Below are positions 7,822-45,418 of a stretch of DNA of 64,000 bases, piece by piece. Under the pieces are notes generated by a model that worked only from the letters and a program-made list of their open reading frames with translations, did not search any database and had not been told where the DNA came from. How positions within the stretch are numbered: the first letter of the stretch is position 1; every line of letters begins with the position of its first letter. A program made the translations under genes and the position numbers. The DNA is from an uncultured Kiritimatiellota bacterium (lineage in GTDB: Bacteria; Verrucomicrobiota; Kiritimatiellia; RFP12; DVOR01). The stretch lies in contig CALXSF010000008.1 in assembly GCA_944391055.1 (NCBI GenBank), positions 1 through 64,000 of the forward strand. The letters run 5' to 3'.

Positions 7822-9972
7822 TCACCACGACGTGTCAAAGAAGTTGCTGCCATCGTCGGAGACGGTGCCGATCTGCTCGTGCGTCTCCCGCTTGTTCCTG
7901 TAGCCCTTGTAGGACCACCAGCCGTCCCCGAGATAGGCGATGTCGCCGCGGTTGCACCCCGCCAATTTCGCGGCCGCGCTCTGCGAGCTTCCCTCCGAGG
8001 GGTCGTTGTCGTGAAGGACGCCCTGGACATAGGTCATCGTCACGGTGCGCCTGAAGACCTTTTTGCCGACGTAGAAGATGTCCCCGTCGCTGACCTCATA
8101 GGTCTGTTCCCACGCGTCCTGCCCGCCGCCCCCGCCGCCGGAATCCCTTTCGCTGGACGAGAACTGCCCGTCGAAGAGCCCGAACGCGTTCTTGCGGAAG
8201 CCGCCCCCGGTCCAATCCCCGGCGGGGAGCGCCTTTTGGTTCTGGAAGACGCAAATCCGCAGCGTCCTCCCGCTGCCATCCTTCCCGAAGGTGTGGGTCT
8301 GCTGATAGCCTTTCGCCGTCACCAGGCGCTTGGACCACGTCGTCCGCCCGCTGGGCGTGACCTGCCTGTCCACGCTGACGGTCGTCCCCTCGTCGGCCGC
8401 CTCGGGGTCGTCCGGCGGCGCGGGGTCGTTCGCCGCGGAGGTCACCTCCACGTCCTCGAGCGCGGTGACGGACTTGGACGTCCTGTGGTTGGGGACAAGC
8501 CTCTCGGTCGTCTCCCGCCGCTCGACGTCCATCTTCCCAAGCTCGTTCATCCGCGCGGAGACGCCGAAGGTCTTGCCGCTGGCGGCGTCCGGCGCCTGCG
8601 CCTCGCCGCCGTCGGGGACGCCGTCAAGGTTCCGCCCGGTCTCTGTGTGCCGATGTTCGTAGACCGTGCTTTCGCAGTCGACGCCGGCCTCCCCCTCCGC
8701 GACCGTCCTCGGCGTGACCGTGGACTTCGTGACGTTCCACTTCCCGCCGGGCGTCCGCTCCTGCCGGATCTCCTCGCCGACCTCCGGGAGGCCTGCCGCC
8801 CGCCCCGTGTTCCGGTCCGTCTTCGTCGCCTCCTCCGCGAACGCCGTCTTCCGTCTCGCCTCTGCGGCCCCAAGCACCTCCAGCTCCGTCTCGACCGTCT
8901 CCGTGACGTCATGTTTCCCCTCGGGCGTGCGCTCCGAGCGGAAGGTCCTGATCGTCCCGTCCCCGGCGGCGGAGGCGGGGGGCGCCCCGGCCTCGTCACG
9001 GTTCCGGTCCGTCGTCGACTCCGTCGCCGAGAAGATGGTGGCGCTCCCTTGGCGGACGGCGCTCTCGACCGTCTTCGGCGTGACCTTGGTTTTCGTGACG
9101 TTCCACTTCCCGCCGGGCGTCCGCTCCTGCCGGATCTCCTCGCCGAGGCCCGGGGCGTCTGCGACCCGCCCGACGTGGCGGTCCGCCTCCGTCGACTCGG
9201 AGGCATAGAGCGTCTCCCGCCTCGACTCCGCCGCCGCGTCGACGGGCTCCTCGCTCGTGTTGACCAACGTCACGTCCGTCGTGCAGTCGTCATTCTTCGA
9301 CTTTTGGATGTCGACGACGGTCCCGTCCCCGTCGTCGACCCTCATCCCATGCCGCTGGGCGAAGTCGGCGATCTTGTCGTCGACGCCGGAGCCTTCCTCC
9401 TCGCGGACGCCGAGCAGCAGCGCGCTCTCCCGCGTCTCCCCTGTTTCCTGATGGGAAAGCCAGGGCCCGACGTCGACTTGGACGCGCTCGCGCCGCACCA
9501 GCACATACGAGAAGAGCCCGCTCTCCCCGTCCCGCCGGATCCCTTGGATGGAATAGGCGACCCCCGAGCCGCCCTCCGGCGCCTCCATGACCTCCGCCAC
9601 GCGCCAGAAGAAGGTGTGTTCCTCTTTGTAGACGCACCCGTTCTCCACGGCATAGGGCCCGTCGGCGTCGGCGTCCTCGGCGTTGCGCACCGCGTGGTAG
9701 AGCCTCCACGAACGACCGCCGGGGCCCCCGGAATCCTCATACCACGCGCGGAGGGGCTTCCACCGGACCTTCGGGCGCTTCCCGTCCACGAAGACCTCGG
9801 CGCAGCCCTCGTCGGAGCAAAGCCAGCCGACGGCGTCCTCCATCCCCTCGAAGAACGGGACGTCGATGTAGCGCACAAGCGTGTCGCCGCGAAAGAAGCG
9901 GACGTTCGCGCCGAAGCGCGCCGTCTTCCAGGGCGCGCTCCTCAGATAGTGGATGACGTCTTCGCGTGTCAT
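7822..9972 (-). CDS. Repeat-containing phage structural protein
   Basis: 716 residues. A globular N-terminal part (1 to about 235) is followed by four imperfect repeats of 70-80 residues (about 255-515). Two carry GEEIRQERTPGGKWNVTK almost identically and two carry diverged versions (RSERTPEGKHDVTE, NELGKMDVERRETTE). The repeats pair a Thr/Lys-rich hairpin with an acidic Thr-rich linker. The C-terminal domain is aromatic and glycine-rich, with a GGGGGG tract near 615. Tandem hairpin repeats in a late phage gene suggest an elongated virion appendage or fibre shaft. There is no enzymatic motif. The nearly identical repeat DNA (around 8730-8790 and 9085-9145) could recombine. Confidence 0.7.
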   Translation of the reverse strand: MTREDVIHYLRSAPWKTARFGANVRFFRGDTLVRYIDVPFFEGMEDAVGWLCSDEGCAEVFVDGKRPKVRWKPLRAWYEDSGGPGGRSWRLYHAVRNAEDADADGPYAVENGCVYKEEHTFFWRVAEVMEAPEGGSGVAYSIQGIRRDGESGLFSYVLVRRERVQVDVGPWLSHQETGETRESALLLGVREEEGSGVDDKIADFAQRHGMRVDDGDGTVVDIQKSKNDDCTTDVTLVNTSEEPVDAAAESRRETLYASESTEADRHVGRVADAPGLGEEIRQERTPGGKWNVTKTKVTPKTVESAVRQGSATIFSATESTTDRNRDEAGAPPASAAGDGTIRTFRSERTPEGKHDVTETVETELEVLGAAEARRKTAFAEEATKTDRNTGRAAGLPEVGEEIRQERTPGGKWNVTKSTVTPRTVAEGEAGVDCESTVYEHRHTETGRNLDGVPDGGEAQAPDAASGKTFGVSARMNELGKMDVERRETTERLVPNHRTSKSVTALEDVEVTSAANDPAPPDDPEAADEGTTVSVDRQVTPSGRTTWSKRLVTAKGYQQTHTFGKDGSGRTLRICVFQNQKALPAGDWTGGGFRKNAFGLFDGQFSSSERDSGGGGGGQDAWEQTYEVSDGDIFYVGKKVFRRTVTMTYVQGVLHDNDPSEGSSQSAAAKLAGCNRGDIAYLGDGWWSYKGYRNKRETHEQIGTVSDDGSNFFDTSW

Positions 9973-11315: not shown

Positions 11316-12470
11316 TCACTCCTCCCTCGCGGCGGTGAGCGTGCCGTCGTCGGACACGGAGACCCTGTAACGCGTCCCGTTCGGGGAGGCGAGGATGAGG
11401 CCGCCGGTGACCTCCAGGTCCCCGGAGACGCGGACCGTCACGGACGTGACGCCGCCGTCGGCGACGAGGCGGTAGAAGTGCGACGCGCCCGCGGCGCGCG
11501 CCACCGTGAACCGATAGGCGTCGCCGCCGAGGCTCGTCATGGCGGACGGCGTCGGGACGAACGCGTCGTCCAACGCCTCGGCCGCGTGGACCGAGACGCC
11601 GGACGCGTCGATCCCCATCACGGTGGCGTCGATCGCCACCGACCCGTCCCCGACGCTGATGTCCGTGACCGCGATCTCGCCGGTGGCGGGCGCCTCCCCC
11701 GAGGCGGCCGAGATCGTGAGCGCCTCGGCCGAAAGCACCGAGAGGGCGAGCCCACCGGCCTTGGGGAGGATGGAGGCGCCGGATTCGCCGCCGAACCAGA
11801 TCGCCTTCCCGTTGGCCTCGACCCGGCTCTTGGCCGGATAGTCCGCCCAGTCCTCGCCCCGGTTGCCGTCGTGGTGACGCAGCAGGTCCGCGCGGAGGGT
11901 GGAGAGGCGGTAGGTGCCCAGGTGGTCGGTGATGACGAAGTCGCGCGCCGTGGTGTCGTTGACGCGCTCGACGCTTGGCGCGAAGACCTGGATGTCATAG
12001 GCGAAGCCGCCGTTCGCGGTCTTCAGGTCGATCGTCGCGACGGGGCCGTCGATCGTGACGGCGCCGTCCGCCGACCCCGGGATCAGGCCGCTGCTCCCGC
12101 CCGTCCGCCACGTGACCGCGCCGATCGCGCGCCCGTCCAGCATCGTGACCGTCAGCGTCGCCCCCTCCGCCGCGGCGTAGGTGACATGGCCGTCGTAGGC
12201 GCCGACGGTGGCGGCCCCGGGGTCGACGTCGTAGGCCTTCGCGGGATACGGGGCGCTCCGCTCGGAACGGAGGGCGAATGGGTCGGAGACCGCCACGGCG
12301 CGCCCATCCTCGCCGACGTAAAGGATGGCCGATTCCGCGTCCGAGAGCCTGTAGGCCAGCTTCCCGGACTCGGGCGGGGAGACGAGGTTCTGCGCCTCGG
12401 AGGTTTGCGGGACGGTGGCGGCGTCGGCGGACGCGGCCATCAGGAGGGCGGCGAGGGCAAGGCGTCTCAT
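11316..12470 (-). CDS. Virion protein with signal-peptide-like N-terminus
   Basis: 384 residues. The start MRRLALAALLMAASADA looks like a cleavable signal peptide, odd for a phage structural protein. The rest is beta-rich with many Gly/Thr/Ala/Val strands and no catalytic motif. It ends in a compact segment with GDLEVTGGLILASPNG and YRVSVSDDGTL that looks like a strand-repeat tip. The ATG overlaps the stop of the fibre-protease gene (ATGA) and has GGAG eight bases upstream, so the two are coupled. It may be a fibre partner or adhesin exposed on the lysogen, which is inference. An earlier in-frame extension to 13256 is an out-of-frame shadow of the protease gene. Confidence 0.65.
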   Translation of the reverse strand: MRRLALAALLMAASADAATVPQTSEAQNLVSPPESGKLAYRLSDAESAILYVGEDGRAVAVSDPFALRSERSAPYPAKAYDVDPGAATVGAYDGHVTYAAAEGATLTVTMLDGRAIGAVTWRTGGSSGLIPGSADGAVTIDGPVATIDLKTANGGFAYDIQVFAPSVERVNDTTARDFVITDHLGTYRLSTLRADLLRHHDGNRGEDWADYPAKSRVEANGKAIWFGGESGASILPKAGGLALSVLSAEALTISAASGEAPATGEIAVTDISVGDGSVAIDATVMGIDASGVSVHAAEALDDAFVPTPSAMTSLGGDAYRFTVARAAGASHFYRLVADGGVTSVTVRVSGDLEVTGGLILASPNGTRYRVSVSDDGTLTAAREE

Positions 12471-15349
12471 GGCGTGGTCTCCTCGGTGGCTTCGGGGATG
12501 GGGATGCGTTTCAGGGATTCCGTCCCGCCGGAGGCGGCGCGGATGTAATGGTCGAGGATGTCCGCGCCGCCCACGAGCGAGGAACCGGCGCACACGGTGT
12601 GGTAGAGGGAGGTGACGACGGGCTTCCCGTCGTGGACGAAGAAGACGGGGAGCCCGGAGTCGCCGCCATAGACCTGCGCGGCGCGGGAGTCGGAGAGGAG
12701 TTGCGCGACGTCGTCGCGGCAGTCGAGGGCGCCCTCCGCCAAATCCTCGGGGCGGAGCGCGCCGGGCCGCCCCCACGCGCTGCCCTTGTGGTTGGCGTAG
12801 GCGGTGTAGGAGAGGTAGCCGTTCTGCGTGACGGTGAGGCAGGCGATCCCCTTGAGGCTCCCCTTGTAATGCGCGTTGACGCCCTCCTGGTCGATCACCC
12901 AGGGGACGCAGGCGTCGGGGATTGCGTCGTCGACAGTGAAGACGTAGACGTCCCAGACGCTTTCGGCCTCCTCCGCGGTGTAGCCGTTCCGCAGGGCCCA
13001 ATCCCTGAGCCGCACGCCCCCCGTGGCGGTGACGGTCGCGACGGTGCCGTCCGGCGCGAGGAACCGCCCCACGCGCCCGGTCGGCGCGGGATCCCAGTGG
13101 GCCGCCGTCAGGGCGTAGTGCGGCGCGACGGCGAACATCCTGCGCCCGTACTGGCCCACGCCCGTGTCCACCATCGCGCAGAGCGCCGGGGCCGCCGGGA
13201 GCGCGTCGGCATAGGCCGTGGGCGCGGCGCCCGCCGTCGCGTAGAGGTAATCGCACGTCGCCACGGCGGGCGTGATGCCGGAGGCCACGGTCTGCGAGGT
13301 GTCGCGCGCCTGGAGGATTGCCAGCACGGCGTCGTTCGCGGCGTCGCGGGCACTCCCCTCCACGTCGCCGTGATAGAACGCGCTCTCGGCCACCCGCGTC
13401 TCCGAGCGGAAGGAGGTCATCACCGTGCGCGTGCGCGTCCCGTCCGTCGCGGACACCTTGGCCAGGCCGTTGCCGGTGGCCGTGAGCGTGGCCGCGTTCC
13501 CCTCCGGCTCAAGGGTCGCCGGGCCGGAAACCAGCGTGAACGTGAAGGCCTCCGGCAAGACGCCGGTGGCCAGCGCGTCGAGCGGCACGGGGCGGACGGA
13601 GACCGCGTTCCCCCGCGTGAGCGTCGAGGAGCGGACGGCGAAGATCTGGCCGTACGCGTTGGTGGAGAGGCCCGAGGCCTCGCCGCTGACGACGCTGTCC
13701 CCCAACGGGACGGCCTCCAGCGTCCAGTCCCCGGGATGCACCCAGACCGGGCCCGGCCCCTCGCCCGCCGCGCTGATGACGTTGTCCTCCGAGAGGACGA
13801 TGCCCGCGCCCGCGGTGAGCTTCTTCTGATAGACATATTGGAGCCATTTGCCGTTTTCGGACATCTGGCCGGAAACCAAGATGTTCCCGTTCGCGGCATC
13901 GACATTGATTTTCCCGGTCCCGAAAAGCACCGAGCCAAGAATCGTTTGCTGTTCGTTCGTGTCCTTGCGCAGGTAGCTTGCCTCCGCCTGCCCCGCCATG
14001 TCGGCGAGCGCGTCGTCCACGTAGTCCTTGGTGGGGACGGGGATGAGGCCGACTTCGGAGGACGCGTCCCCCACCTTAAAGAACTTTTCCTCGCCGATGG
14101 GCGGGGCGATGTCGAATTGCGCGCCCGGGCTGCCCGAGCTTTCGCCGCCCATGAAGGAGAAGCCGCCGTTCCCGCCGTAGATGTAGTTGATCAGCCCCTT
14201 GCCGTTGAGAAGGTAGTCCTTCACCAGTTTGGTGCTGGGGACGTGGTCGTCGGCGGGCTCGTCGGGCATCGTCGTGTCGATGGGGACGGAGGCCCCGCCC
14301 GCGGCGGAGATCACGTTCCCCTCGATTGTGATGTTGTCCCCGGCGGTGAGCGCGTCCTGCTTCCCCGCGAGGGCGGCGGCGAGGCCCTCGACGTCGCCCT
14401 GGGCGTGGGTGTGCGCGGCGGGGGCCTTGGCGGCGAGCTGCTGCACAAGGCCGCCCACCTCCGTGTAGGCATAGGCCGGCTTGGCGGCGGCCTTGGCCCA
14501 AGCCGGCACCGTGGGGTCGGATTCCGACGTCAGGAAGTCCGGCGCGCCCGTGACGGCCCCCCACGGGAAGGACGCGACCGAGAAGGTCAGTTTCCCGCCG
14601 TCGTCGACGTCCACCGTCAGGTTGTCGCCCGCGAGGAGATAGGCCGGGAGGTCGGCGCGGCGGATGAGCCCGTCCCCCGTGCGCGGGGCGCCCAGCGACT
14701 CGATGTAGCCCATCCGGAGCGTCCAACCGGTCCCGACGACGTCGCCCCCGAGCGTCACGCCCTTTGTCCTCAACGGGCCCGTGAGCGTGCCGCCGGAGAG
14801 CGGGAGGTAACCCTCGAGCTGCGCCCGGACCCACGCCCAGATGCCGCCGCCCCTCACGACGTTCGCGCCGTTCTCCGTCGGCTCCGCGTCAAAGGCCAGC
14901 GCGTCCTGCTTCTTGCCCAAAAGGCCCTTGACCGCCGGGGCGTCGAGGATGACGGTCGCCTCCTGGTCCAGCTCGTAGAGCGCCTTCCCGTCCTCGCCCG
15001 TCACGCTTTGGCCGAACGCCGAGAAGGCGGTCGACGCCAGCACGGCGACGGCGGCGCGCTTGAGGCGCCGGATCAGGCGCGAGACCGTCTCAAAGATGTT
15101 CTTGGTCGTCTTTGCCGTCCCCATCTCCAAATCCTCGAACTCCTCGGGCCTCAGGGAGCCGTCGCTCGCGATGAGGTCGCGGACTTGCGCCTCCGTCACG
15201 GCCCCCACCTGCTCCGCCGTCACGCCGTGCGGGTTGTTTCGGTCTTGGAGATGCGCCTCCAGCCGGGACACGCCCGGGTCCGAGGGCGTCTCCAGCGGCC
15301 ATCGGGTGGGATACCACTCGCCCGTCTGCTCCCGTGCGTCCTCCGCCAT
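12467..15349 (-). CDS. Tail fibre fused to a trypsin-like serine protease
   Basis: 960 residues. NNPHGVTAEQVGA (about 38-50) is the typical proximal motif of phage tail fibres, and LSGGTLTGPL (near 183) is a shaft repeat found in the same proteins. A hydrophobic segment lies near 100-117. The middle is Gly/Ala/Thr-rich beta structure. The last 220 residues carry all three chymotrypsin-fold signatures in order: ALTAAHW with His751, WDVYVFTV with Asp800, and GGDSGLPVFF with Ser898. Spacings of 49 and 98 are close to those of trypsin (45 and 93). A protease at the fibre tip could degrade a surface protein receptor or mature the fibre. ATG 15349 has GGAG in the end of the preceding gene. Confidence 0.8.
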   Translation of the reverse strand: MAEDAREQTGEWYPTRWPLETPSDPGVSRLEAHLQDRNNPHGVTAEQVGAVTEAQVRDLIASDGSLRPEEFEDLEMGTAKTTKNIFETVSRLIRRLKRAAVAVLASTAFSAFGQSVTGEDGKALYELDQEATVILDAPAVKGLLGKKQDALAFDAEPTENGANVVRGGGIWAWVRAQLEGYLPLSGGTLTGPLRTKGVTLGGDVVGTGWTLRMGYIESLGAPRTGDGLIRRADLPAYLLAGDNLTVDVDDGGKLTFSVASFPWGAVTGAPDFLTSESDPTVPAWAKAAAKPAYAYTEVGGLVQQLAAKAPAAHTHAQGDVEGLAAALAGKQDALTAGDNITIEGNVISAAGGASVPIDTTMPDEPADDHVPSTKLVKDYLLNGKGLINYIYGGNGGFSFMGGESSGSPGAQFDIAPPIGEEKFFKVGDASSEVGLIPVPTKDYVDDALADMAGQAEASYLRKDTNEQQTILGSVLFGTGKINVDAANGNILVSGQMSENGKWLQYVYQKKLTAGAGIVLSEDNVISAAGEGPGPVWVHPGDWTLEAVPLGDSVVSGEASGLSTNAYGQIFAVRSSTLTRGNAVSVRPVPLDALATGVLPEAFTFTLVSGPATLEPEGNAATLTATGNGLAKVSATDGTRTRTVMTSFRSETRVAESAFYHGDVEGSARDAANDAVLAILQARDTSQTVASGITPAVATCDYLYATAGAAPTAYADALPAAPALCAMVDTGVGQYGRRMFAVAPHYALTAAHWDPAPTGRVGRFLAPDGTVATVTATGGVRLRDWALRNGYTAEEAESVWDVYVFTVDDAIPDACVPWVIDQEGVNAHYKGSLKGIACLTVTQNGYLSYTAYANHKGSAWGRPGALRPEDLAEGALDCRDDVAQLLSDSRAAQVYGGDSGLPVFFVHDGKPVVTSLYHTVCAGSSLVGGADILDHYIRAASGGTESLKRIPIPEATEETTP

Positions 15350-16340: not shown

Positions 16341-16901
16341 TCAGATCAAGTCCCGCCGCCTGAGCTCATCTTCGACAAGTTTTGCAAAGTCTTTCGGGAA
16401 TCCCCAGACATCATTGCGCTGAGACAGTTCAGCGGCCATCGAGCGTATGTCGTCAACACAGACCAACCCGTTTTCGACAAGGCCATAAAGGGGTTCCATC
16501 AACCAATAGGTCCGGAGGTTCAGATTGGATGCCGCCTCGCGTACAAGCCTGTCGTTGCTCCACACACACCCGCCTTTGTGCTTCGCTTGCAGTACCACTT
16601 CGCAATCCGCCTCAGAAAGCCCCCGTGAATACCACGTCGCTTCGTGACTCTCCTGCTTTCGCTTTTCCTCCAAGAGGTCACGCGCGATTGCCGAGGTTGT
16701 CTCTTCGATGCGGACGTTGAGCAACATGAGGCGCTCAAGCGGGATGGTGGATGCCACTTCCTCCGCCACCTTGAATGGGACACGGACCTCACATCCAAGA
16801 ACATCATGGATGCCTTCAAGAAGATGCAGGCGATTGACCCGGTCAAGGCAAATCAAAATGTTGGCATCGACGATCCACAACGTATTTGGCACATCAGGCA
16901 T
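16341..16901 (-). CDS. PIN-like (DUF4411-type) toxin candidate
   Basis: 186 residues. The N-terminus LWIVDANILICLDR contains the first conserved Asp of PIN-type nucleases. Later acidic positions occur in EVAS, SEADCEVV and WSNDRLV, the pattern of metal-binding acids in this fold. It overlaps the upstream HTH-ImmA/IrrE gene by eight bases and shares its promoter. In DUF4411-type pairs the second gene encodes the presumed RNA-cleaving toxin and the first the antitoxin or regulator. An earlier in-frame ATG at 16922 lies inside the upstream gene. The enzymatic activity is inferred from fold motifs only. Confidence 0.65.
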   Translation of the reverse strand: MPDVPNTLWIVDANILICLDRVNRLHLLEGIHDVLGCEVRVPFKVAEEVASTIPLERLMLLNVRIEETTSAIARDLLEEKRKQESHEATWYSRGLSEADCEVVLQAKHKGGCVWSNDRLVREAASNLNLRTYWLMEPLYGLVENGLVCVDDIRSMAAELSQRNDVWGFPKDFAKLVEDELRRRDLI

Positions 16902-18003
16902 GGACACCCCTCCCAAGCCCATGCAGCTCCTTGGCGACTTCCGTCAAAGGTATCCGGGTCAATTCCGAAAAACGGGAAAGCGTGATTTCGCCATGTTTCG
17001 CCGCATCCAACGCGGCAAGCCAAAAGGCCGTCGGCTTCAGCGGTATGTCCACCGGGCAAGGCTCCCCCGAGGAAGACACCGAGCATTGCTTCACGTATCC
17101 GAGAAACCGCTGATAGGGATTCTCCGGGGCTCTCCCATGGTTTTCAAGCTGTTTTATGACGGTTCTGTAGGAAACTTTGTAAGCCAATTTCGCCCGAAGC
17201 ACCGCGTTCTCAAACGAGATAAGCCCGGAAAGCGAATCCCAATACTTGAGAAACGTTTCGTGCGGGACAAGCAATTCTCGGGCAAAGGCGTTTGCCTTGT
17301 CCTCTTCCTCGTCGTGCGACCGCTTCGAGCCATGCGGGCCATGGTGGGAGCCCAGCACGATATGCCCCAACTCATGGGCGATCGCGAACACGCGGGATTC
17401 CGAGGAGACGTCGGAGCGCGAATTGACCACGAGCGCCGTGCCGACACCCGGCTCCTCGAACGAGAACCCATCGCAGCCTTTCATGTGGAAAGGAAACATC
17501 CCGAAAAGGATGCCGACGCGATCGAGCGCGTCCGGGAACGACTCCTGCACGAATCCGCCTTTGTCCCACAATGCCTGCCTCACGGCTCGTGCGCAAGCGA
17601 CCGGATCGCTCCCGTTCGCCCTGACGTTTTTGAGGAAAGCTCCCAACAGCGCGGCATCCGTCTTTTCCGTGCGCCTCCCCAACTCTAAGAGATAACGCAT
17701 ATCCCGCACCCAAGAGGCCACGATGTGGCCATCCTCCGCCTGTCGGGCCTTCTCGTAGTTGCGTTGGCATTTGTTGGAAAGATAGGCGGCGTTGCAAGAG
17801 AGGTTTGGGGCAAAGAAACGTGTCATTGGCACGCGATAATGCCTGCTTAGGCGAAAGAGCACGTCATCGCCCGGCATCACCTCGCCGCGCTCCTCCTTCT
17901 GGTAGGCGAAACGCGACACCCCGGCGATTTCGGCGACCCTCTCTTGCGTCAAATGATGAAGTTCCCGAAAATGCCTTAGCTGTTTTGATACGACCGCGTC
18001 CAT
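16894..18003 (-). CDS. HTH-XRE / ImmA-IrrE metallopeptidase regulator
   Basis: 369 residues. Residues about 8-65 are a lambda-repressor-type helix-turn-helix (LTQERVAEIAGVSRFAYQKEE). A C-terminal DUF955 domain has the zinc motif HELGH near residue 210, with a downstream acidic stretch EEEDKANAFARELL that supplies the usual third ligand region. Such proteins repress their own operon and can cleave a partner regulator. Here the partner is the overlapping PIN-like gene, so the pair is best read as a toxin-antitoxin or lysogen-stability module. ATG 18003 has GGAG in the right place. A consensus-like promoter lies directly upstream. Confidence 0.75.
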   Translation of the reverse strand: MDAVVSKQLRHFRELHHLTQERVAEIAGVSRFAYQKEERGEVMPGDDVLFRLSRHYRVPMTRFFAPNLSCNAAYLSNKCQRNYEKARQAEDGHIVASWVRDMRYLLELGRRTEKTDAALLGAFLKNVRANGSDPVACARAVRQALWDKGGFVQESFPDALDRVGILFGMFPFHMKGCDGFSFEEPGVGTALVVNSRSDVSSESRVFAIAHELGHIVLGSHHGPHGSKRSHDEEEDKANAFARELLVPHETFLKYWDSLSGLISFENAVLRAKLAYKVSYRTVIKQLENHGRAPENPYQRFLGYVKQCSVSSSGEPCPVDIPLKPTAFWLAALDAAKHGEITLSRFSELTRIPLTEVAKELHGLGRGVHA

Positions 18004-18027
18004 CGCTCTCTCCTTGTTTCGTGGACA

Positions 18028-18056
18028 AGAGTATGCTTTTTTTGCCAATTTGTCAA
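18028..18056 (-). promoter_or_regulatory. Strong promoter of the HTH-IrrE/PIN pair
   Basis: On the minus strand a perfect -35 TTGACA (18056-18051) is followed by a 17-base spacer and -10 TACTCT (18033-18028), 24 bases before the ATG. This is one of the few near-consensus promoters in the prophage, as expected for a gene expressed in the lysogen. Confidence 0.7.
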
Positions 18057-18141
18057 GCAACGGCGAGGCATGGGGGCACGCACCGACCCGGTGCGCGCGA
18101 CGCAAGGCGCATCGTTGCCGGGCGCGGCGGGGCCGCGCCCC

Positions 18142-36609: not shown

Positions 36610-39600
36610 TCACCTGCCGTTCACCCAGCGCGCCGCCCTCATCCGCTCCTCCGGGTCCCGGATGCCCTCCACCACCTCCAGCGCCCGCCCCTTCGGCCCC
36701 AGCGCACGGTCGAACCACGCGCGCCGCACAGTGTCCTGCATGTAGCCCACGGCGTCGGGGTCCTTCCACACCTCGTCCCCCGTCGGCTCGCCGCGCAGCA
36801 TCCGCTCCGCGGCCTCGCGCCCGACCAGGCGCGAGGCCGCCCGCCCCTGCTCCGAGAGCGCGGCGTGCTGCAGCGCCGTCTGCCGCAGGCCCTCCGTGTC
36901 GAACGACCCCAGGCGCATCAGCGCGGGCCCCACCAAGGGCAGCCCGAACAACGCCCGCAGCGCCCGCATGTCCTCCGGCGCCTCCCCCTCCGCCGTGCGC
37001 CGCAGGCGGAGGGCCCCCACCAGCGGGGAGGCGTTCCAAAGCTCGCGCGCCACGCTCTTGGCCAGGAACCTCGGCGCCTTCCAGCGCGCCTTCATCTCGT
37101 CCTCGTCGTACATCGTCGCCTGCCGGTAGCTCTGCCACACGTTCGCGCCGAAAAGGTAGGGCCCCGCCCATGCCCCGAGGAAGGCGAGCGCCGAGCCCTG
37201 CCCCGACGGGTCGAAGAGCGCCTGGTCCCCCAACGCCCGCGCCACGTCCGCCCAATTCCGCGCCGGGCTCGGCGAGGCCAGCCCCAGCTGGTTCCACAGG
37301 GCGAGCGTCGCCATGTCCGCAATCCGCGCCTCGTCCGGGATGGGGATCTTCAACGAGAAGGTCGCCGTCCCCGCCGCGTTCATCCACAGCGGCACCACGC
37401 GGAAGTTCTCCTGGACGTAAGGGCTCACGTTCCGCAGCGCCGCCTGCTGCCACAGGAGCGCCCGATACAGCTCGCCCGCCGCCGACCCGTTGGCCATCGC
37501 CTCCCGCGCCTCCTCCTCGTCCCCGTCGAAGAAGGCCCACAGCGCCGCGCTCGTCAGCGCCCCGCCGCTCAGCAGCAGCGAGACCAGCCGCGGCGCCATG
37601 GCGTGGGCGATCATCTTCCCCGTCCAATCCCCCGGCGCCTCCCTCGCCGCCCTCGCCGTCCGCAGCAGCCCCTCCTTGCGCGCGTTCCAGAACGGGCTCG
37701 CGAACATCTCCACCAGGTTCGCCGCCATCCCCTTCGCCGAGAAGTCGGGGTCCCCCGCCCGGTCCGCGGCCTTCAGCGCGATCGCCTTCCGGCCCCGCGC
37801 GTCATAGCCCCGCGCCCCCGCCGCTTGGTCGTGCAGGAAGCAATACCCCGCCAACTTCACCGTCATGCTCTCCAGCTCGTTGATGTAGCCCGCCGTCTCC
37901 CAATAGGCCGTCAGCGGCCTCGCCGCCAGGCGCCCCGCCGCCCTCGCCAACGCCTTGGGTGAGCGCAGCGCCTCCCGCGCGCGCTCGCCGAGGGTCTCGC
38001 GCTCGTACCGCAGGCGATACCTGTCGAAGAGCCGCCCCAGGTCGGAGGTCTGGTAATCGTCCCGCCGCGTCTGGTTCATCGTCAGCAGCACCCCGTCCTC
38101 CAGCGCGTGCCGCGCCATCGTCGCGCAATACTCCAGCTCGCGCGCCTTCGCCTCATTGCCCGCCGCGCGGGCGCGTGCCGCCGCCTCCAGCGTCCCCTCG
38201 AAGTCCATGTTCTGGATGATCCGCGCGATCTTGTTCCCGAAGCTCGTCCAATACTCCACCGTGCCCCGGCCGAAGATCAGCCGACCCACCGGGTTCTCCC
38301 CGATCGCGCGCATCACGTGCGGCGGGATGGCCTGCGCCGCCAGCGTCGCCCACGCGCCCGCGTCCGCGAGCCCCTTCACGGCCTTCAGCGGCCCCACGCC
38401 CGGGATGAGCGCGCCCACGTTCAGCGCCGTCAGCCAATACAACGGGCTGCGCCGCAGCCCCTTGATGTTCTGCGACAGGCTGTTCAGGTCGCGCGGCAGC
38501 GCCGTCAGCGCGAACGTCGGCGCGTTGGTCGTGTAGCTTGCGTTCAGGAAGCGCGTCAGCCTCGTCAGCATCGGGACCGTCAGCGAGGACGCGTTGAAGG
38601 CGTCCGCCACCGGCCGCGGCACCCGCACCGCCCGTCGCGCCCCGCCCTCCATGAACTCCAGCGTCCCGAAGCGCCGGTTCTCCACCCGCCGATCCCCCGG
38701 CCCCAGCACCTTGAAGCCCGGGTACGCGTGCCCCTCCAGCGCGTGCGCCAGGCGCATCACCGCCGCGTTCTTGTTGGCCGCCTCCAGGATCTCCACCGCC
38801 GTCTGCGCCGTCGCGGAGACCGGGTCCTTCGTCGGCCGGAAGCTTCCCTCCAGCCGATGCACCGCCCAGCCCACGCCGCTGCGCCCCCCGCCCGCCGTCA
38901 GCCCGCGCACCTCCTGCAGCGCGACGTCCAGCGGGTCCTCCTGCCCCGGGCGCTCCCGCGCGAAGAGCGCCTTCTGCCCCAGCCAGCGCTCCACCTCCTC
39001 CGGGTCCTGGCCGTGGCGCATCGTGATGTAATGCTTGTTCCGCTCCATCATCGCGATCGTCTTCTCGCCCAGCATCGCCCGCACGTCCGCGTTGTTGATC
39101 ACGTGCTGCTCGTAGAGCGCGCGGAAGACGTTGGCCAGGCGCCGGATGTCCCTCATCCGCGCCAACCCCTTCGTCCGCGCCATCTCGTTCAGCAGCCCCC
39201 GCGCCCGCGGCGGGTCGATGCCATAGGCCGTCGCCCGCCCCCCGAGCTCGATCACGCGCTGCAGATGCAGATACAGCGCCAGCTCCCGCATCCCCACCCC
39301 CAGCCGCTCCGACGCCCGGAACACCTTCCCGTGCAGGTCCGCCAGGAAGAGCTTGCTCGTCCCGTATTGGTGCGTGTAGAGATTCTTCCGGAAACGGATG
39401 TCCAGCAGCTCCTCGTCCAGCTCCGCCACGCGCGCGTCGTGGTCCTCCCGCGTGATGTTCCCCGCCCGCAGATCCGCCGCCAGGCGCCGCCGCACCGCCT
39501 CCTGGGAGCGCTCCGCCACCATCACCATCGGCGCGTGCCGGTCCAGCCACGTCCGCGCCGCCTCCATCCTTCGGTCAAAGGGCGTCGGCTCCGTGACCGC

Positions 39601-42600
39601 CGCCGCCAGGCGCCGCTCCTCGGCCTCCGCCGCGGCCGCCCAGCCGCGCTCCAGGCGATCCACCAGATCCTTCCCGTCGCGCCCCTCCTCGATCGCCCGC
39701 TGCGTCGCCGCCCACGCCTCGAACGCCTTGGGGTGGCGCTTCATCCCCTCCAGCATCGCCGCGTAAAACCGCGGCGCCCGCCGCCGCACCGCGCCGGGGT
39801 CAAGGAAGAGCGCGGCCCCCATCTCCGCGTACGCCTCGTGCGCCTGCGCGAAATGCGCCTCGTCGAAGCCCACCCCGCGCCACCAGCGGATGAAGTCCCC
39901 CGCCTCCGCCATCAGCTCCCCGTCCGAGGCGAACGCCTCCTCCGGCAGGCTCTTCGCGAACGAGCCCTTCAGGTTCGCCAAATGCCCCAGCAGGTTCCCA
40001 TGCCCGCGCACGCCGACCCCGTCCGAGGCGTCGATCAGGTGCCACAGCTCATGCGCCATCACCTTCGCCCCCGCGCCCGTGTGCAGCCCCGCGCGGACGC
40101 GCGCGGCCACCAGTCCGCGCAGCACCTCCCCAAGGCGCGCCTCCGAGAAGCGCCGCTCATGGTCGATCGTCCCGCGCGTCTGCGCCGCGCACCACGCCGG
40201 GTCCTCGTTCCGGAACAGCCCCCGCGCGCGCAGCCGGTCGTGCAGCGTCTGCCGGTCGCTCGCGTCCAGAAGCCCGAAGAGCTGCGCCCGCACCATCACG
40301 TCCTGCGTCTTCGGGTCAAACCACCCCAGCGCCGTCCGCGGCCCACGGTCCCGCCGCGCCACCACCTTCGGGAACTTCCCCGCCAGTTGGCGGTAAAGCG
40401 CCACCACGTGGTCCAGCCGGAGCGGCAGCGCCGAGGCGTCCGCCGCCGGGCTCCCCGCCACCGGCACGCGCCCCCCGTTCGGATACACCGTCACCTCCAG
40501 CGGGCTCCGCGGCAGCGCGTTCGCCTCCACCCCCTCCGGCACGGGCGGCGGGTCCTCCGCCGTCGGGAAGGCCGCTTGACGGAGCGCATCCGATTGTGCT
40601 ACGCTCGCCTCGTCATTTGGAGGGACCGCCATGGCATTCTTTATCAGCGACAAACTCGGCATCGCATACGAATCCTGCGAAGGCGGCTTGGCCAAGTGGA
40701 GCTCCGAGGACAAGGACTTCACGAGGTCGATGTCCCGCGCGGAGAGCCGGGAGGCGATATTTGCGCCCGCCAAGCGCGTCACCGAGGACGAGGCCCGCGC
40801 CTTCATGCTCTCGAAGGCCGCCGCGTCCGGCGCGTCCGGCCCCCGCGCATAGAGCGCGTTCGAGAGTTCGTCGATCGCGTCCAAGGCCTCGTTGACGTCC
40901 GCGTCGCCGAGGTCTTTGTATTTGTCCAACACCCGTTGGATCTCATACACCAAGTGCCCGCCGCGGCTGTGTTTGGCCTCGTCCATGTACTCCGACACCA
41001 GGATCACCTCGCCGAGGCCCCCGTTCGGGAAGCGCACCGACACCTTGATGTCCCCGTAGCCCACGTCGTCGTCGCCCATCCGGAGCTTCTTCACCCGCGC
41101 GACGCCCGCCCCTTCCGGCAACGCCTTTTTCAGCGCCTTCAGCGCCTCCCCGAAATCCGCGCCGTCCGGCAGGACGATCGTCCCGCCCGCGAGGTCCGCC
41201 AGGCGCGAGGCGTCCCCGCCGTAGTCGTTGGCCACCTTCTCCGCCGCGCGCGCGATCCCCTTCGGCCCCGTGCGCATCCGCGCACGGCCCCCCGCCGCCC
41301 GCGCCGCGGTCTCCACCGCCGCCGCCAGGCGCGGCGCGTTCGCCTCCGCCTGGCGGTACGCCTTCTCCAGCGCCAAGGCCGGCTCCAACCCGTCCAGCCC
41401 CCGCGCGCGCAACGCCCCGTCCCCGCCGGGGCCCACGTTCGCGAGCGCCAACGCCGAGTTCCCCAGCCACGTCCCCGTGTCCCGCCCCACCACGCGCGCC
41501 ACCACCTCGCACCCGCCCATCGCCCCCATCGCCAGGGAGGAGGCGTTCCCGTCCACCACCGTGTACGTCCCGTCCGCGTTCGCCGCCACGTCCACCGGCG
41601 CGCGCCGGGCCATCTCGCCGCGCGAGGCCAGGCGCATCCGCCGCGCCGCCTCCCGCACGCTTGCCTCCGGCTCCTCCCGCCCAGGGCGCAGCAGGAACAG
41701 CGGCACGCGCACGCTCCCCTCCCGCTCCGCGAAGAACCGCTCCGCCGGGGCCTTGGCCACGCGCCGGTTGTGCGCCATCACCTCGCCGAGGCCCTCCGCG
41801 CCGACCGCCCGCGCGTCCTCCGGCGTCAGCGCCACCTGCGCCCGCCCCGCCTGCCCCAACGCGCCGCGCAGCAGCGCCCTCGGCGCCCCGCTCCCCGCGA
41901 GCCCCGAGACCCAAAGCGTCCCGTCCCCCGCCTCCAGCGCCGCCGTCTTGCCCCCCGGCAGCCCCACCATGAACCGCCCCGGCCCCGCCCCCGGGACCGT
42001 CCGCGCCCTCATGCCTTTGGGCGCGGGCGAGAGCAGTATGTCGTCCGTCCCCGGGTCGAACGCCCCCGAGTTGTCCGTCGCCGACTTGATGGCCCTCGGA
42101 TCAAAGACGCCATACTCCGTCTCCATCCCCTCCTCCCGCTCGACCGTCCCGTCGTAGCCCTCCCGAATCAACGCGTCCCGGACGACCCGCCCTTCCCCTT
42201 TCGCCGATGGCTTCCCCTCCCTCGGGTTGCGGAGATTCAGGAACGCCGCCACCACGCGCTCCCCCATCCCCTCCCAATCCTCCGTCCCGGAGGAGAAATA
42301 CGCCGCGGGCAGGTCCATGCTCTGGCGCGCCATGCCAATGTCGAACGCGCGGAACGCCGCGTCCGTCCGGTGGTACACCACCTTCGGCTCGCCGTTCTCG
42401 TCCAACACCTTGCTCGCGTTCGCCGGGTCGTTCTCCCAGTCCCCGAACCACGCCTTGAAGGAAGGCGTTCGCACCTGCAGCCACTGCCGCTCGCCCAGGT
42501 TCGTCGGCCGCCCGTTCGGCGCCTTCATCCACCCGGCCTTCATCCTGCCGTCCGGCCCCGTGAACGCCCGCCTCACCGCCGCCGCCTCGTCGTGCTCGAA

Positions 42601-45402
42601 CGGCGCGGGCGAGAAGAGCGCCCCCGCCTCGGCCTCGCGCGCGTCCGAGCGCGCGGCCTCCTCCCGGCGCGCCGCGTTCGCGCGCCCCTCCATCTCGCTC
42701 AGCGCGCCGTCCAGCGTCGTCATCCGCCCGTCCGGCAGCTCAGCCGCCGGGTCGTCCATGTGCAGCGACGCGCGCGCGAACGCGCTCGCCTGCCTCGCCA
42801 GCTCCGGGTCGGTGTAATAATTCTGCCACCGGCGCTTCTCCGTTTCCAGCCGTTCGATCGCCTTGGCCATCCCCTCCGCGTCGTCGGGCCCCCTCAGCCC
42901 GTATTTCCCGGCCAGCCCCTCGCGCACCGAAAGGTTCCCGCTCTGCCGCCCCGCCGCCGTCTTCAGGGCGCGCAGGTCATGGTCGATCTCCGCCGCCTTC
43001 CGCGCCGCGAACTTCGCCTCGAGCCCCATCGCCAGCTCGAAGGTCTCGTCATCCCCGAACAGGTCCAGCTGCCGGGCGCCTTTCGCCTCCACGCGCGCCG
43101 CGTAGGCCTGGCGCAGGCTCCGCGCCATGATCGCCGCGTCGTCCGCGCGCAGCCCCTCGTCCAGCACCGCCCGCGTCACCGCGCGCTGGATGTTCGCCGC
43201 GTAGGGCCCGCCCCCCTCCGGCGCCTCGCGCACGATCGCCGCCGCCACGTCCAGCGTCATGTGCCGGTCGCGCCCCATCACCAGGCTGTACAGGTCCTCC
43301 GTGGCGCCCCGCGCCACCGCCCGGGCGTCCCGCTGGCGCTTCCGCGCCCACAGCTCCGGGTGCGCCGCGATCGTCTCCTCGTCCAGCTTCGTCGTCCGGA
43401 AGAAGTGCACGAAGTCCTGGTCGCTCCCCTTCCCGTCCAGGATGTTGTCGTAGGCGTCCATCACCCGCGCCGCCTCCGGCGTCCATCCGTCGCGCTCGCG
43501 GATGACGTTCGCCGGGATCGTCGCCATCCCGTTTCGGCGCGCCAGGTCCAGGCGGTGCCGCCCCGTCACCACCTCCCGCGCGCCATCCTCGAATTCCATC
43601 ACCAAAATCGGCTTCGACGGGATCGGCTGGAACGCCCCCTCCAGCCGCTCCCCCGCCACCACCCCCGTCTCCGGATCCGCGTCCTCCTTGAACTGCCGGA
43701 TGCGGTCGTTCACCCGCAGCCCCTCCGTCGGCAGGTTCACCGTCTTCACGTCCGCTCCGCGGATCAGCCCGAAGAGGTCCAGCACGTCCCCCGCCGTCGT
43801 CCGCCCCCCGCGCGGCGGCGCCACCGTCTCGGGCTCCCCGCGCCCGTCCGTCACCACGCCCCCCGCCGTCCGCAGCGTCCCATCCGCCCGCGCCACCGTC
43901 CCGTCCCCGAACAGCACGCTCCCGTCCCCGCGCACCAGCCGCGCGCCCCCCGGCTCGTCCGCGGGGAGCCGCACGTCCCCCGCCTCGGGACGCGCCGCGC
44001 GATGCGCCTGCGCCGCGCGCCGCGCCTCCTCCGCCCCCGCCAAACGCTCCGCCGCCCACAGCTGCCGCGCGAGCGCCCGCGCCCGTCGGCTCTGGGCCGC
44101 GCCCACCCCCTCGGCGAACCCCGAGGCCACCGCCCCGTACAGCCCACCCACCGCGGCCGCCGCCAGCTTGTCCTCCTCCGTCAGCGGCACCCCCGCCTCC
44201 TGAAGCGCCGTCAGGTGCTGATACGTGTCCAACGCCTCCGTCCCCGCCTCGATCCCCACGCCCCGCAGAATCTTCCGCGCCATCGCGCCGCCCGTCGGCT
44301 CCCGCAGCCCCTGCAGGAACCACGCCTTCGCGCTCCGCCCAAGCCCCTCGCCCGCCGCGCGCGTCAACGAGCCCCCCACCTGGTCGGCCACGGAGAGCAG
44401 ATAGGAGTTCAGCGCGTCCATCCCCGCAATCGAGAACGCCTCCCCCGCCGCCTTCCCATTCCCACGGGCCGCCGCGTGCGTCTCGCCGAATTGCTCCCCC
44501 GCCATCAGCGCCGGATACGCCTTCGGCTGGCGCGCCAACGCCCGCGCCCCCGCCGCAGCCTTCTCCCCCAGCGTCGTCCTCAGCGCGGGCGCGGCGGGCG
44601 CCACCCTCGGGGCCGCCGCCGCGCCCCTCGCAAGGCCGGTGAGCCGCGCCACCGCGCCGCCCAAAAGAAGCTGCCCCGCCAGGTCGCGGGCCCCCGCCGC
44701 CACGTCATAGGCGACCTCCGCGCCCTTCCCAAGCCCCCTCGGCCGCGTCTCCAGCCACCTCGCCTCGATCGCGTCAAGCCACCGCCGGTTCGCGTCCGCA
44801 TGGTCCGCCCACTCCCCGATCAGACGCGAGACCGGGTTCTCCGCCAGCCCCCCAAGGCTCGCCGCCTGCTCCAACGCCGCGCTCGTCAGCTGCTCCAGCC
44901 CCACCACCGCCTTCGGCGCAAGTATCCCCACCTGCCCCGCCCCCTTCAGGAGGTTCGCCCCCCATTCCCAGAGGAACGCCCCCGCGCGCCCCTCCCCGCC
45001 GCCAAGCGCCTCGTCCGCCTCTTCCTCCGACAGCCACCGCACCCCCGGCGACTCCGAGACGATCGTCGCGCCCATCCGCGCGTTCTCCCTCAGGAACGCC
45101 TCCCGCTCGTCGTTCGGCACATCATAGCGCCCCCCATCGCTGGTCACGAAGTGCGTCACCGAGTCATCCTTGAAAGGACGCACGCGCTCCGCCCTGTCAG
45201 GCGCCTTCGCGTTGGCCGCCTCGAACGCCTCCCACTCCTCCTCCGGCACGTCAAAGCGCCTCCCGTCTTTCGTCGCCGCGGAACGCAGCACCGTGAATGC
45301 CACGCCATCGGCCTTCGCCGCCTCGGCATACGCCGCCGCCTCGCCATAAGGCACGAAACGCTCCGTCCCGTCAGCCTCGCGAATGTGGAGAAGTGCGTCC
45401 AT
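36610..45402 (-). CDS. Giant polyvalent virion-type protein (2930 aa)
   Basis: One frame of 2930 residues from ATG 45402 (GGAGG eight bases upstream). In order: a hydrophobic-helix region (about 150-400); a ParB-like segment with VVTGRHRLDLARRNG (near 615); a polyvalent ADP-ribosyltransferase-like domain beginning GERQWLQVRTPSFKAWFGDW and containing VVYHRTD (about 960-1110); a second ParB-like strand (TYTVVDGNASSLAMG, about 1290); a RelA/SpoT-like nucleotidyltransferase segment (NDYGGDASRLADLAGG, GYGDIKVSVRFPNGG, about 1377-1494); a metallopeptidase-like HELWH motif (near 1780); and a C-terminal LPD38-like region with FALTALPRDLNSLSQNIKG. Such proteins are packaged in the head and ejected with the DNA. 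A rightward gene lies antisense inside it. Confidence 0.8.
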   Translation of the reverse strand: MDALLHIREADGTERFVPYGEAAAYAEAAKADGVAFTVLRSAATKDGRRFDVPEEEWEAFEAANAKAPDRAERVRPFKDDSVTHFVTSDGGRYDVPNDEREAFLRENARMGATIVSESPGVRWLSEEEADEALGGGEGRAGAFLWEWGANLLKGAGQVGILAPKAVVGLEQLTSAALEQAASLGGLAENPVSRLIGEWADHADANRRWLDAIEARWLETRPRGLGKGAEVAYDVAAGARDLAGQLLLGGAVARLTGLARGAAAAPRVAPAAPALRTTLGEKAAAGARALARQPKAYPALMAGEQFGETHAAARGNGKAAGEAFSIAGMDALNSYLLSVADQVGGSLTRAAGEGLGRSAKAWFLQGLREPTGGAMARKILRGVGIEAGTEALDTYQHLTALQEAGVPLTEEDKLAAAAVGGLYGAVASGFAEGVGAAQSRRARALARQLWAAERLAGAEEARRAAQAHRAARPEAGDVRLPADEPGGARLVRGDGSVLFGDGTVARADGTLRTAGGVVTDGRGEPETVAPPRGGRTTAGDVLDLFGLIRGADVKTVNLPTEGLRVNDRIRQFKEDADPETGVVAGERLEGAFQPIPSKPILVMEFEDGAREVVTGRHRLDLARRNGMATIPANVIRERDGWTPEAARVMDAYDNILDGKGSDQDFVHFFRTTKLDEETIAAHPELWARKRQRDARAVARGATEDLYSLVMGRDRHMTLDVAAAIVREAPEGGGPYAANIQRAVTRAVLDEGLRADDAAIMARSLRQAYAARVEAKGARQLDLFGDDETFELAMGLEAKFAARKAAEIDHDLRALKTAAGRQSGNLSVREGLAGKYGLRGPDDAEGMAKAIERLETEKRRWQNYYTDPELARQASAFARASLHMDDPAAELPDGRMTTLDGALSEMEGRANAARREEAARSDAREAEAGALFSPAPFEHDEAAAVRRAFTGPDGRMKAGWMKAPNGRPTNLGERQWLQVRTPSFKAWFGDWENDPANASKVLDENGEPKVVYHRTDAAFRAFDIGMARQSMDLPAAYFSSGTEDWEGMGERVVAAFLNLRNPREGKPSAKGEGRVVRDALIREGYDGTVEREEGMETEYGVFDPRAIKSATDNSGAFDPGTDDILLSPAPKGMRARTVPGAGPGRFMVGLPGGKTAALEAGDGTLWVSGLAGSGAPRALLRGALGQAGRAQVALTPEDARAVGAEGLGEVMAHNRRVAKAPAERFFAEREGSVRVPLFLLRPGREEPEASVREAARRMRLASRGEMARRAPVDVAANADGTYTVVDGNASSLAMGAMGGCEVVARVVGRDTGTWLGNSALALANVGPGGDGALRARGLDGLEPALALEKAYRQAEANAPRLAAAVETAARAAGGRARMRTGPKGIARAAEKVANDYGGDASRLADLAGGTIVLPDGADFGEALKALKKALPEGAGVARVKKLRMGDDDVGYGDIKVSVRFPNGGLGEVILVSEYMDEAKHSRGGHLVYEIQRVLDKYKDLGDADVNEALDAIDELSNALYARGPDAPDAAAFESMKARASSSVTRLAGANIASRLSARDIDLVKSLSSELHLAKPPSQDSYAMPSLSLIKNAMAVPPNDEASVAQSDALRQAAFPTAEDPPPVPEGVEANALPRSPLEVTVYPNGGRVPVAGSPAADASALPLRLDHVVALYRQLAGKFPKVVARRDRGPRTALGWFDPKTQDVMVRAQLFGLLDASDRQTLHDRLRARGLFRNEDPAWCAAQTRGTIDHERRFSEARLGEVLRGLVAARVRAGLHTGAGAKVMAHELWHLIDASDGVGVRGHGNLLGHLANLKGSFAKSLPEEAFASDGELMAEAGDFIRWWRGVGFDEAHFAQAHEAYAEMGAALFLDPGAVRRRAPRFYAAMLEGMKRHPKAFEAWAATQRAIEEGRDGKDLVDRLERGWAAAAEAEERRLAAAVTEPTPFDRRMEAARTWLDRHAPMVMVAERSQEAVRRRLAADLRAGNITREDHDARVAELDEELLDIRFRKNLYTHQYGTSKLFLADLHGKVFRASERLGVGMRELALYLHLQRVIELGGRATAYGIDPPRARGLLNEMARTKGLARMRDIRRLANVFRALYEQHVINNADVRAMLGEKTIAMMERNKHYITMRHGQDPEEVERWLGQKALFARERPGQEDPLDVALQEVRGLTAGGGRSGVGWAVHRLEGSFRPTKDPVSATAQTAVEILEAANKNAAVMRLAHALEGHAYPGFKVLGPGDRRVENRRFGTLEFMEGGARRAVRVPRPVADAFNASSLTVPMLTRLTRFLNASYTTNAPTFALTALPRDLNSLSQNIKGLRRSPLYWLTALNVGALIPGVGPLKAVKGLADAGAWATLAAQAIPPHVMRAIGENPVGRLIFGRGTVEYWTSFGNKIARIIQNMDFEGTLEAAARARAAGNEAKARELEYCATMARHALEDGVLLTMNQTRRDDYQTSDLGRLFDRYRLRYERETLGERAREALRSPKALARAAGRLAARPLTAYWETAGYINELESMTVKLAGYCFLHDQAAGARGYDARGRKAIALKAADRAGDPDFSAKGMAANLVEMFASPFWNARKEGLLRTARAAREAPGDWTGKMIAHAMAPRLVSLLLSGGALTSAALWAFFDGDEEEAREAMANGSAAGELYRALLWQQAALRNVSPYVQENFRVVPLWMNAAGTATFSLKIPIPDEARIADMATLALWNQLGLASPSPARNWADVARALGDQALFDPSGQGSALAFLGAWAGPYLFGANVWQSYRQATMYDEDEMKARWKAPRFLAKSVARELWNASPLVGALRLRRTAEGEAPEDMRALRALFGLPLVGPALMRLGSFDTEGLRQTALQHAALSEQGRAASRLVGREAAERMLRGEPTGDEVWKDPDAVGYMQDTVRRAWFDRALGPKGRALEVVEGIRDPEERMRAARWVNGR
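40576..40605 (+). promoter_or_regulatory. Promoter of the nested antisense gene
   Basis: TTGACG (40576-40581), an 18-base spacer and TACGCT (40600-40605), preceded by TGC to give an extended -10. It lies on the plus strand within the giant minus-strand gene, 25 bases before the nested ATG. Confidence 0.55.
40631..40852 (+). CDS. Nested antisense gene, 73 residues
   Basis: ATG 40631 has GGAGG eight bases upstream and a promoter further up. The product starts MAFFISDKLGIAYESCEGGL and continues with AKWSSEDKDFTRS, REAIFAPAKRVTEDEARAF. It has a balanced composition, unlike every other plus-strand frame across this gene, which are Arg/Pro-rich. Local GC is lower than around it. The giant protein reads the same DNA backwards as a Ser/Leu-rich linker after its RelA/SpoT-like domain (residues about 1517-1590), so an inserted cargo gene that kept the frame open is likely. 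No family is recognised. Confidence 0.6.
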   Translation: MAFFISDKLGIAYESCEGGLAKWSSEDKDFTRSMSRAESREAIFAPAKRVTEDEARAFMLSKAAASGASGPRA

Positions 45403-45418
45403 GATGTCGGCCTCCCTC

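Follow-up and report, generated by a model that had tools for sequence, protein, structure and literature searches.

The window analysed here, a stretch of 64,000 nucleotides of contig CALXSF010000008.1 from an uncultured Kiritimatiellota bacterium, carries on its minus strand a tail-fibre-like gene (P0001) whose C-terminal tip is, judging from a structural model, almost certainly a chymotrypsin-fold protease with an intact catalytic triad, followed by a companion gene (P0002). The fibre frame runs for 960 codons from an ATG to a TGA stop; a 1282-residue version with a TTG start, present in the list of open reading frames (ORFs), is unneeded, the shorter form being preferred because a 99% identical protein elsewhere is also 960 residues long and because the alignment with a collinear phage's fibre begins at residue 1. 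The translation contains the motifs and spacings reported by the first-pass annotation, which had been made from the letters alone: NNPHGVTAEQVGA (residues 38-50) and LSGGTLTGPL (184-193) on the N-terminal side, then TAAHW (748-752) with H751, WDVYVFTV (799-806) with D800 and GDSGLP (896-901) with S898, the triad residues being separated by 49 and 98 positions. The fibre-like character claimed for the N-terminal part is likewise supported by PHROG matches to phrog_13857 (tail protein, expect value (E) 1.8e-6, residues 29-75) and phrog_8147 (tail fiber, E 4.9e-5, residues 28-62), with a further N-terminal tail-fibre match at E 2.9e-4 and a weak one in the shaft (residues 297-329, E 0.0066).

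Conservation and predicted fold together argue that the triad motifs are not chance occurrences. H751, D800 and S898 are invariant in all 41 aligned rows (32 near sequences including the window, and 9 far), GGDS is kept in the same 41 and G899 in 40, with rows reaching down to about 25% identity; many of these rows are near-duplicates, L026 and P0038 probably represent one gene, and P0043 (15% coverage) was excluded from the tallies. Protein searches scored only those candidates with the most words in common; of the 32 near sequences, 26 went into alignment A1, and A2 has 23 rows, while the tallies for the triad and for the signal-like stretch described below draw on all 32 near sequences. In the model of the C-terminal part of P0001, a double beta-barrel with the chymotrypsin fold is predicted, and residues 677-947 were matched to known structures. 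Model and structure search thereby returned the fold that had been named beforehand as the check, and the proposal of a complete trypsin-like protease domain at the fibre C-terminus stands on this model and the invariant triad.

Chymotrypsin-fold serine proteases belong to MEROPS clan PA, and with its members (bovine chymotrypsin and the staphylococcal V8, Esp and Spl proteases) the tip shares the predicted fold, the order of the triad, a similar spacing and GDSG, but identity is just 8-15% in the 50 rows listed from the structure search. At the level of sequence families, none in Pfam matches P0001 at E <= 1, PF00089 (Trypsin) and S74 included, and PF00089 has no matches anywhere in the window's genome. 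Unlike trypsin, P0001 has Q892 rather than Asp at the usual S1 place, as located by motif spacing, and a bulky F/Y916 near the S1 wall; from these residues, trypsin specificity would not be expected. In BFVD, an uncharacterized protein of an uncultured Caudovirales phage (A0A6J7XEP5) aligns to the model of strand module and protease at E 1.6e-12 over 479 columns, covering most of the module, although with a template-modelling score (TM-score) of only 0.47 and a root-mean-square deviation of 15.7 Å. Because of this coverage, the pairing of protease and strand module is probably wider than the Kiritimatiellae group.

Features of the fibre-protease gene and its companion in the window.
Feature	Window positions	Strand	Basis
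Fibre-protease gene, 960 residues (P0001)	12467..15349	-	translation; family comparisons
N-terminal tail-fibre-like part, residues 28-75	15125..15268	-	PHROG matches
Signal-peptide-like hydrophobic stretch, residues 99-113, behind basic RLIRRLKR run	15011..15055	-	hydropathy, by eye
Variable fibre shaft, residues 116-533	13751..15004	-	swapped or reordered among relatives
Beta-strand module preceding protease, residues 536-663	13361..13744	-	model strands E9-16 to E117-129; conserved W536, D541, W542
Candidate activation/self-cleavage site G691|I692	13274..13279	-	conservation and low-confidence loop
Predicted chymotrypsin-fold protease domain, residues about 697-949	12503..13261	-	
Catalytic His751	13097..13099	-	41/41 rows
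Catalytic Asp800	12950..12952	-	41/41 rows
Catalytic Ser898 in GGDSG	12656..12658	-	41/41 rows
Companion gene, 384 residues (P0002)	11316..12470	-	ATGA overlap with fibre stop, 12467-12470
Signal-peptide-like start of companion, residues 4-18	12417..12461	-	hydropathy

The overlap behind the translational coupling suggested earlier for the 384-residue downstream protein is there, its start lying inside the fibre's stop (ATGA), and the suggestion that it might be a partner is strengthened to that of a true companion: a homologue of P0002 lies directly downstream of the protease fibre in all eight loci whose gene neighbourhoods were covered (the window, L001-L004 and L025-L027). Among 11 companions, the most hydrophobic window is N-terminal in 10, weakly so in L001, L025 and L026, and lies elsewhere in L027. 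The model of P0002 is weak (predicted local distance difference test (pLDDT) 65.3, predicted template-modelling score (pTM) 0.31), with a loose immunoglobulin-like resemblance only, and gave no match in a PDB search at E <= 0.001. The protein search with P0002 yielded 4 homologues among the candidates sharing most words. In addition, a segment of about 30 residues towards its C-terminus (351-380) is similar to proteins of Bacillus phage G, of an uncultured phage record and of Synechococcus phage S-CREM2; two of these three annotations were inspected and say nothing on function.

A second recurrent element is the signal-like stretch within the fibre, which the first-pass annotation did not mention. 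Judged by 15-residue hydropathy windows and by eye, residues 99-113 form the most hydrophobic such window of P0001, and the top hydrophobic window is signal-like in 40 of 40 protease fibres, lying within or beginning in the first 21 residues in 13 of them and internally in 27; the same stretch is present in all three alternative, protease-less fibres. P0004-P0007 start with such a stretch, and in P0008 the stretch and linker (residues 367-453) match P0001 residues 64-149 directly before the protease, preceded by a shaft that holds a collagen-like repeat below Pfam's cut-off. It is this recurrence before unrelated shafts, together with the basic run (absent in 4 of the 40, namely P0008, P0010, L001 and L025, where the charge upstream is not net positive), rather than hydropathy alone, that the case for export rests on. 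Ordinary tailed-phage fibres assemble in the cytoplasm and are not exported; a signal-like stretch inside the fibre makes an ordinary cytoplasmic tail fibre doubtful, and if the stretch is real, the distal half of these fibres would be exported. The nearest precedent found is the signal-peptide and signal-anchor-release endolysins of phages described in one review (PMC6116005), which have in common with P0001 a phage enzyme, a signal-like stretch and a possible envelope target, whereas in the P0001 family the enzyme is a protease borne on a fibre, with a stretch that can start as far in as residue 395 (P0008). An internal second start giving a separate secreted product was also considered, a start-like codon lying at most 40 codons upstream of the stretch in 8 of 8 sequences; only the window and its close relative L023, at codon 76, have an ATG that follows a Shine-Dalgarno-like 4-mer within 20 bases, so the idea was dropped for the family at large, though it may still hold for the window itself.

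Shafts are freely swapped among relatives, and comparison of loci extends this modularity to the tip. In another genome of the same genus (L023), the flanking genes are collinear on both sides and the fibre is 68% identical over its first 182 residues, but it has a different tip without a protease, and the next gene, of 397 residues, is not matched by the P0002 profile even at E 10. A tip and companion related to those of L023 are found in L024, the two companions being 38% identical, and in L009 a third tip is followed by a different gene again. From these alignments, tip and companion seem to be passed on together, although the alternative loci number only three. The alternative tip (GWPEG... 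GYFDLE..STYQL) lies at L023:5898-7865 and L024:2602-3825 and comes with a companion of its own, unrelated and signal-like.

With the whole fibre or the tip as query, tblastn gave no matches in 50,697 phage records, and pattern searches yielded 1 relative among 52 matches in viral contigs and 3 among 60 in genome contigs. A class-wide search matched 11 of 345 genomes; judged by matched ranges, the match extends into the main protease module in 6 of them (counting the window's own), is confined to 30-41 profile positions about the serine motif in 2, and involves nothing but fibre parts in the remaining 3.

The fibre gene likely sits in a prophage, on a 96,272-base contig of a 2.15-Mb genome. Upstream of it in transcription lie terminase-like and scaffold-like genes, an SU10-type capsid gene, a 721-residue gene at the portal position, a helix-turn-helix (HTH)-M78 gene paired with a small one, and a gene of 292 residues that resembles tail proteins only weakly (E 0.047); replication genes stand further up. 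Gene order is partly shared with L003, L004 and L023, and the fibre has its place in the structural gene module. From about 51.5 kb, among ten ORFs sampled, Radical-SAM, methyltransferase and pilin-type matches appear.

The reading that we tentatively favour, as plausible rather than probable, is that the phage uses the protease at its fibre tip to cut a host-surface protein during attachment, with export likely and self-activation possible. Starting from the triad, the family and the companion as read from sequence, and from the fold as modelled, we infer an export step, a zymogen state and an action on the host: the signal-like stretch would carry the distal part across the inner membrane, where this part, like the companion, would fold outside the cytoplasm; a cut after G691 would be needed to switch the protease on, exposing an Ile/Val-Thr end close to the position at which chymotrypsin is activated; and the fibre might then work like a tailspike depolymerase with a protein as its target. 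Since companion and tip are swapped jointly, the companion may be a partner of the tip (an adhesin, a chaperone or a regulator). Of the two roles proposed in the first-pass annotation, cleavage of a host receptor or S-layer and processing of the fibre itself, the receptor role fits the finding that a phage collinear in other respects has a different tip. The most specific version, in which an exported, zymogen-like tip cuts itself after the invariant G691 and then a protein receptor, and travels with the companion as an exchangeable two-gene cassette among Kiritimatiellae phages, appears improbable as a whole.

For self-activation, a cut after G691 is a concrete proposal at a putative site suggested by conservation and the model. 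G691 is invariant in all 41 rows and located just N-terminal to the barrel, all 32 near rows have I or V at position 692, where the 9 far ones show T, S, V or A (Ile/Val in one), and residues 688-696, with G691 in their middle, are the sole chain-internal stretch with a model pLDDT under 50. Chymotrypsin-type enzymes are activated by a cut between residues 15 and 16, and many structural alignments begin at fibre residues 694-700 against residues 17-20 of chymotrypsin-numbered chains, which would place G691|I692 about one to four residues before the activation place.

Several observations weigh against the favoured reading. The tip is more conserved than the shaft, unlike what an arms race at a receptor-binding tip would produce, and the 13 of 40 members with an N-terminal stretch have no fibre domain ahead of it and so may not be virion parts. 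The hydropathy value of the P0001 stretch (1.73) is modest and reached by 3 of 13 control proteins of the window, with the two weakest family members, P0039 and P0040, lower than P0001 (1.57 and 1.63). At the candidate site, the match to the activation place is approximate because other structural alignments begin earlier, at 675-678 against chain residues 7-9; since 8 of the 9 far rows are without Ile/Val at position 692, chymotrypsin-style activation is not general, and self-activation after G691 would have to work without an Ile/Val end in that group; moreover, the conserved loop glycine can be purely structural. As regards the setting, the 721-residue portal-position gene is without a family match. 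Confidence is further held down because two other explanations account for parts of the data too.

The stronger of these, though doubtful, is self-processing, in which the domain would serve maturation and leave the host untouched: while the fibre is assembled, it would cleave the chain that it belongs to, likely behind G691, and perhaps also the companion, much as intramolecular chaperones or viral capsid proteases work. The invariant G691 in a low-confidence loop ahead of the barrel offers it a concrete site, and it gains from the C-terminal position of the protease, from a tip conserved though shafts are swapped, and from the conservation of the extreme end, where L413 and K414 of the module are invariant in the 8 rows of alignment A3; however, the fibres of the related phages L023 and L024 are without any protease, so that fibre assembly has no general need of one. 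Alternatively, and in our estimate unlikely, the protease, and with it the companion, could be exported by the producing cell to the envelope of the infected cell or lysogen, the protease acting there rather than as a virion part and removing the phage's own receptor or freeing progeny like a superinfection or release factor. The signal-like stretch in every protease fibre, N-terminal in 13, the arrangement of P0008 with the protease right behind the stretch and the shaft ahead, and the mostly N-terminal hydrophobic windows of the companions (10 of 11, with the weak and deviating cases given above) are consistent with this, but P0001 begins with a fibre domain, P0008 has a weak collagen-like shaft, the gene stands among phage structural genes, and the three protease-less fibres have the same stretch. 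A binding domain without activity, reusing the protease fold to hold a ligand, is very unlikely, selection for binding alone not requiring the triad and GGDS to be kept in all 41 rows down to about 25% identity. A proteinaceous cell wall, against which a protease would replace the tail lysozyme, was rejected, the window's genome having 3 transpeptidase and 6 Mur-ligase matches; the conservation of division and wall genes in Kiritimatiellota described in the accessible part of one paper (PMC12283558) also counts against a peptidoglycan-less host.

Compared with known systems, the fibre tip that we tentatively regard as a receptor-cutting protease combines familiar parts. Peptidase S74 and intramolecular chaperone tips likewise have a C-terminal proteolytic fibre domain, possibly self-cutting, but S74 uses a Ser-Lys dyad in a fold other than that of chymotrypsin, whereas P0001 has a Ser-His-Asp triad and the predicted chymotrypsin fold, and its putative cut would precede the domain and free an Ile/Val end. 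Like enzymatic tailspikes and fibres (depolymerases), it is an enzyme domain borne distally on a fibre that is modular and exchangeable; it differs from the depolymerases of the 2018 tail-enzyme review (PMC6116005) in being a protease, the accessible part of that review covering polysaccharide, teichoic-acid and peptidoglycan targets and not containing the word protease. In the open-licence literature, no tail fibre with a trypsin-like protease was found, broad topics being judged among the matches listed by title and start of abstract, and nothing was found on Kiritimatiellota prophages or Kiritimatiell* phage tail fibres. Modular enzyme-bearing fibre tips and the chymotrypsin fold are thus known, and it is their combination with an exchangeable companion and a signal-like stretch that was not met in the literature searched. 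Tail enzymes that clear the phage's way have mostly been described as sugar or peptidoglycan cutters; a conserved serine protease in a fibre family would add proteins to their targets and hint at protein receptors or coats in a group of bacteria that has hardly been studied, for which the collinear phage of the same genus, with another tip and another partner at the same place, provides the natural comparison.

Beyond the fibre locus, three further observations concern the window. Between the portal-position gene and the 292-residue gene (window 16341-18105, minus strand) sit an HTH and M78-peptidase protein (PADLOC RmrA, E 1.8e-19) and a 193-residue protein (PADLOC PDC-S70, E 1.6e-4), and the same spot in the collinear L023 holds an AAA ATPase (PADLOC PD-T4-4_A, E 1.2e-22) and a 215-residue protein without a match; it looks like a cargo or defence hotspot amid structural genes. 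A 2993-residue protein (window 36610-45591, minus strand) contains an ART-PolyVal ADP-ribosyltransferase domain (E 3.4e-13). Finally, the minus strand encodes at 7822-9972 a protein of 716 residues that contains imperfect repeats (RQERTPGGKWNVTK...) and is without a PHROG match; its relatives in L023 and L024 are 830 and 556 residues long.

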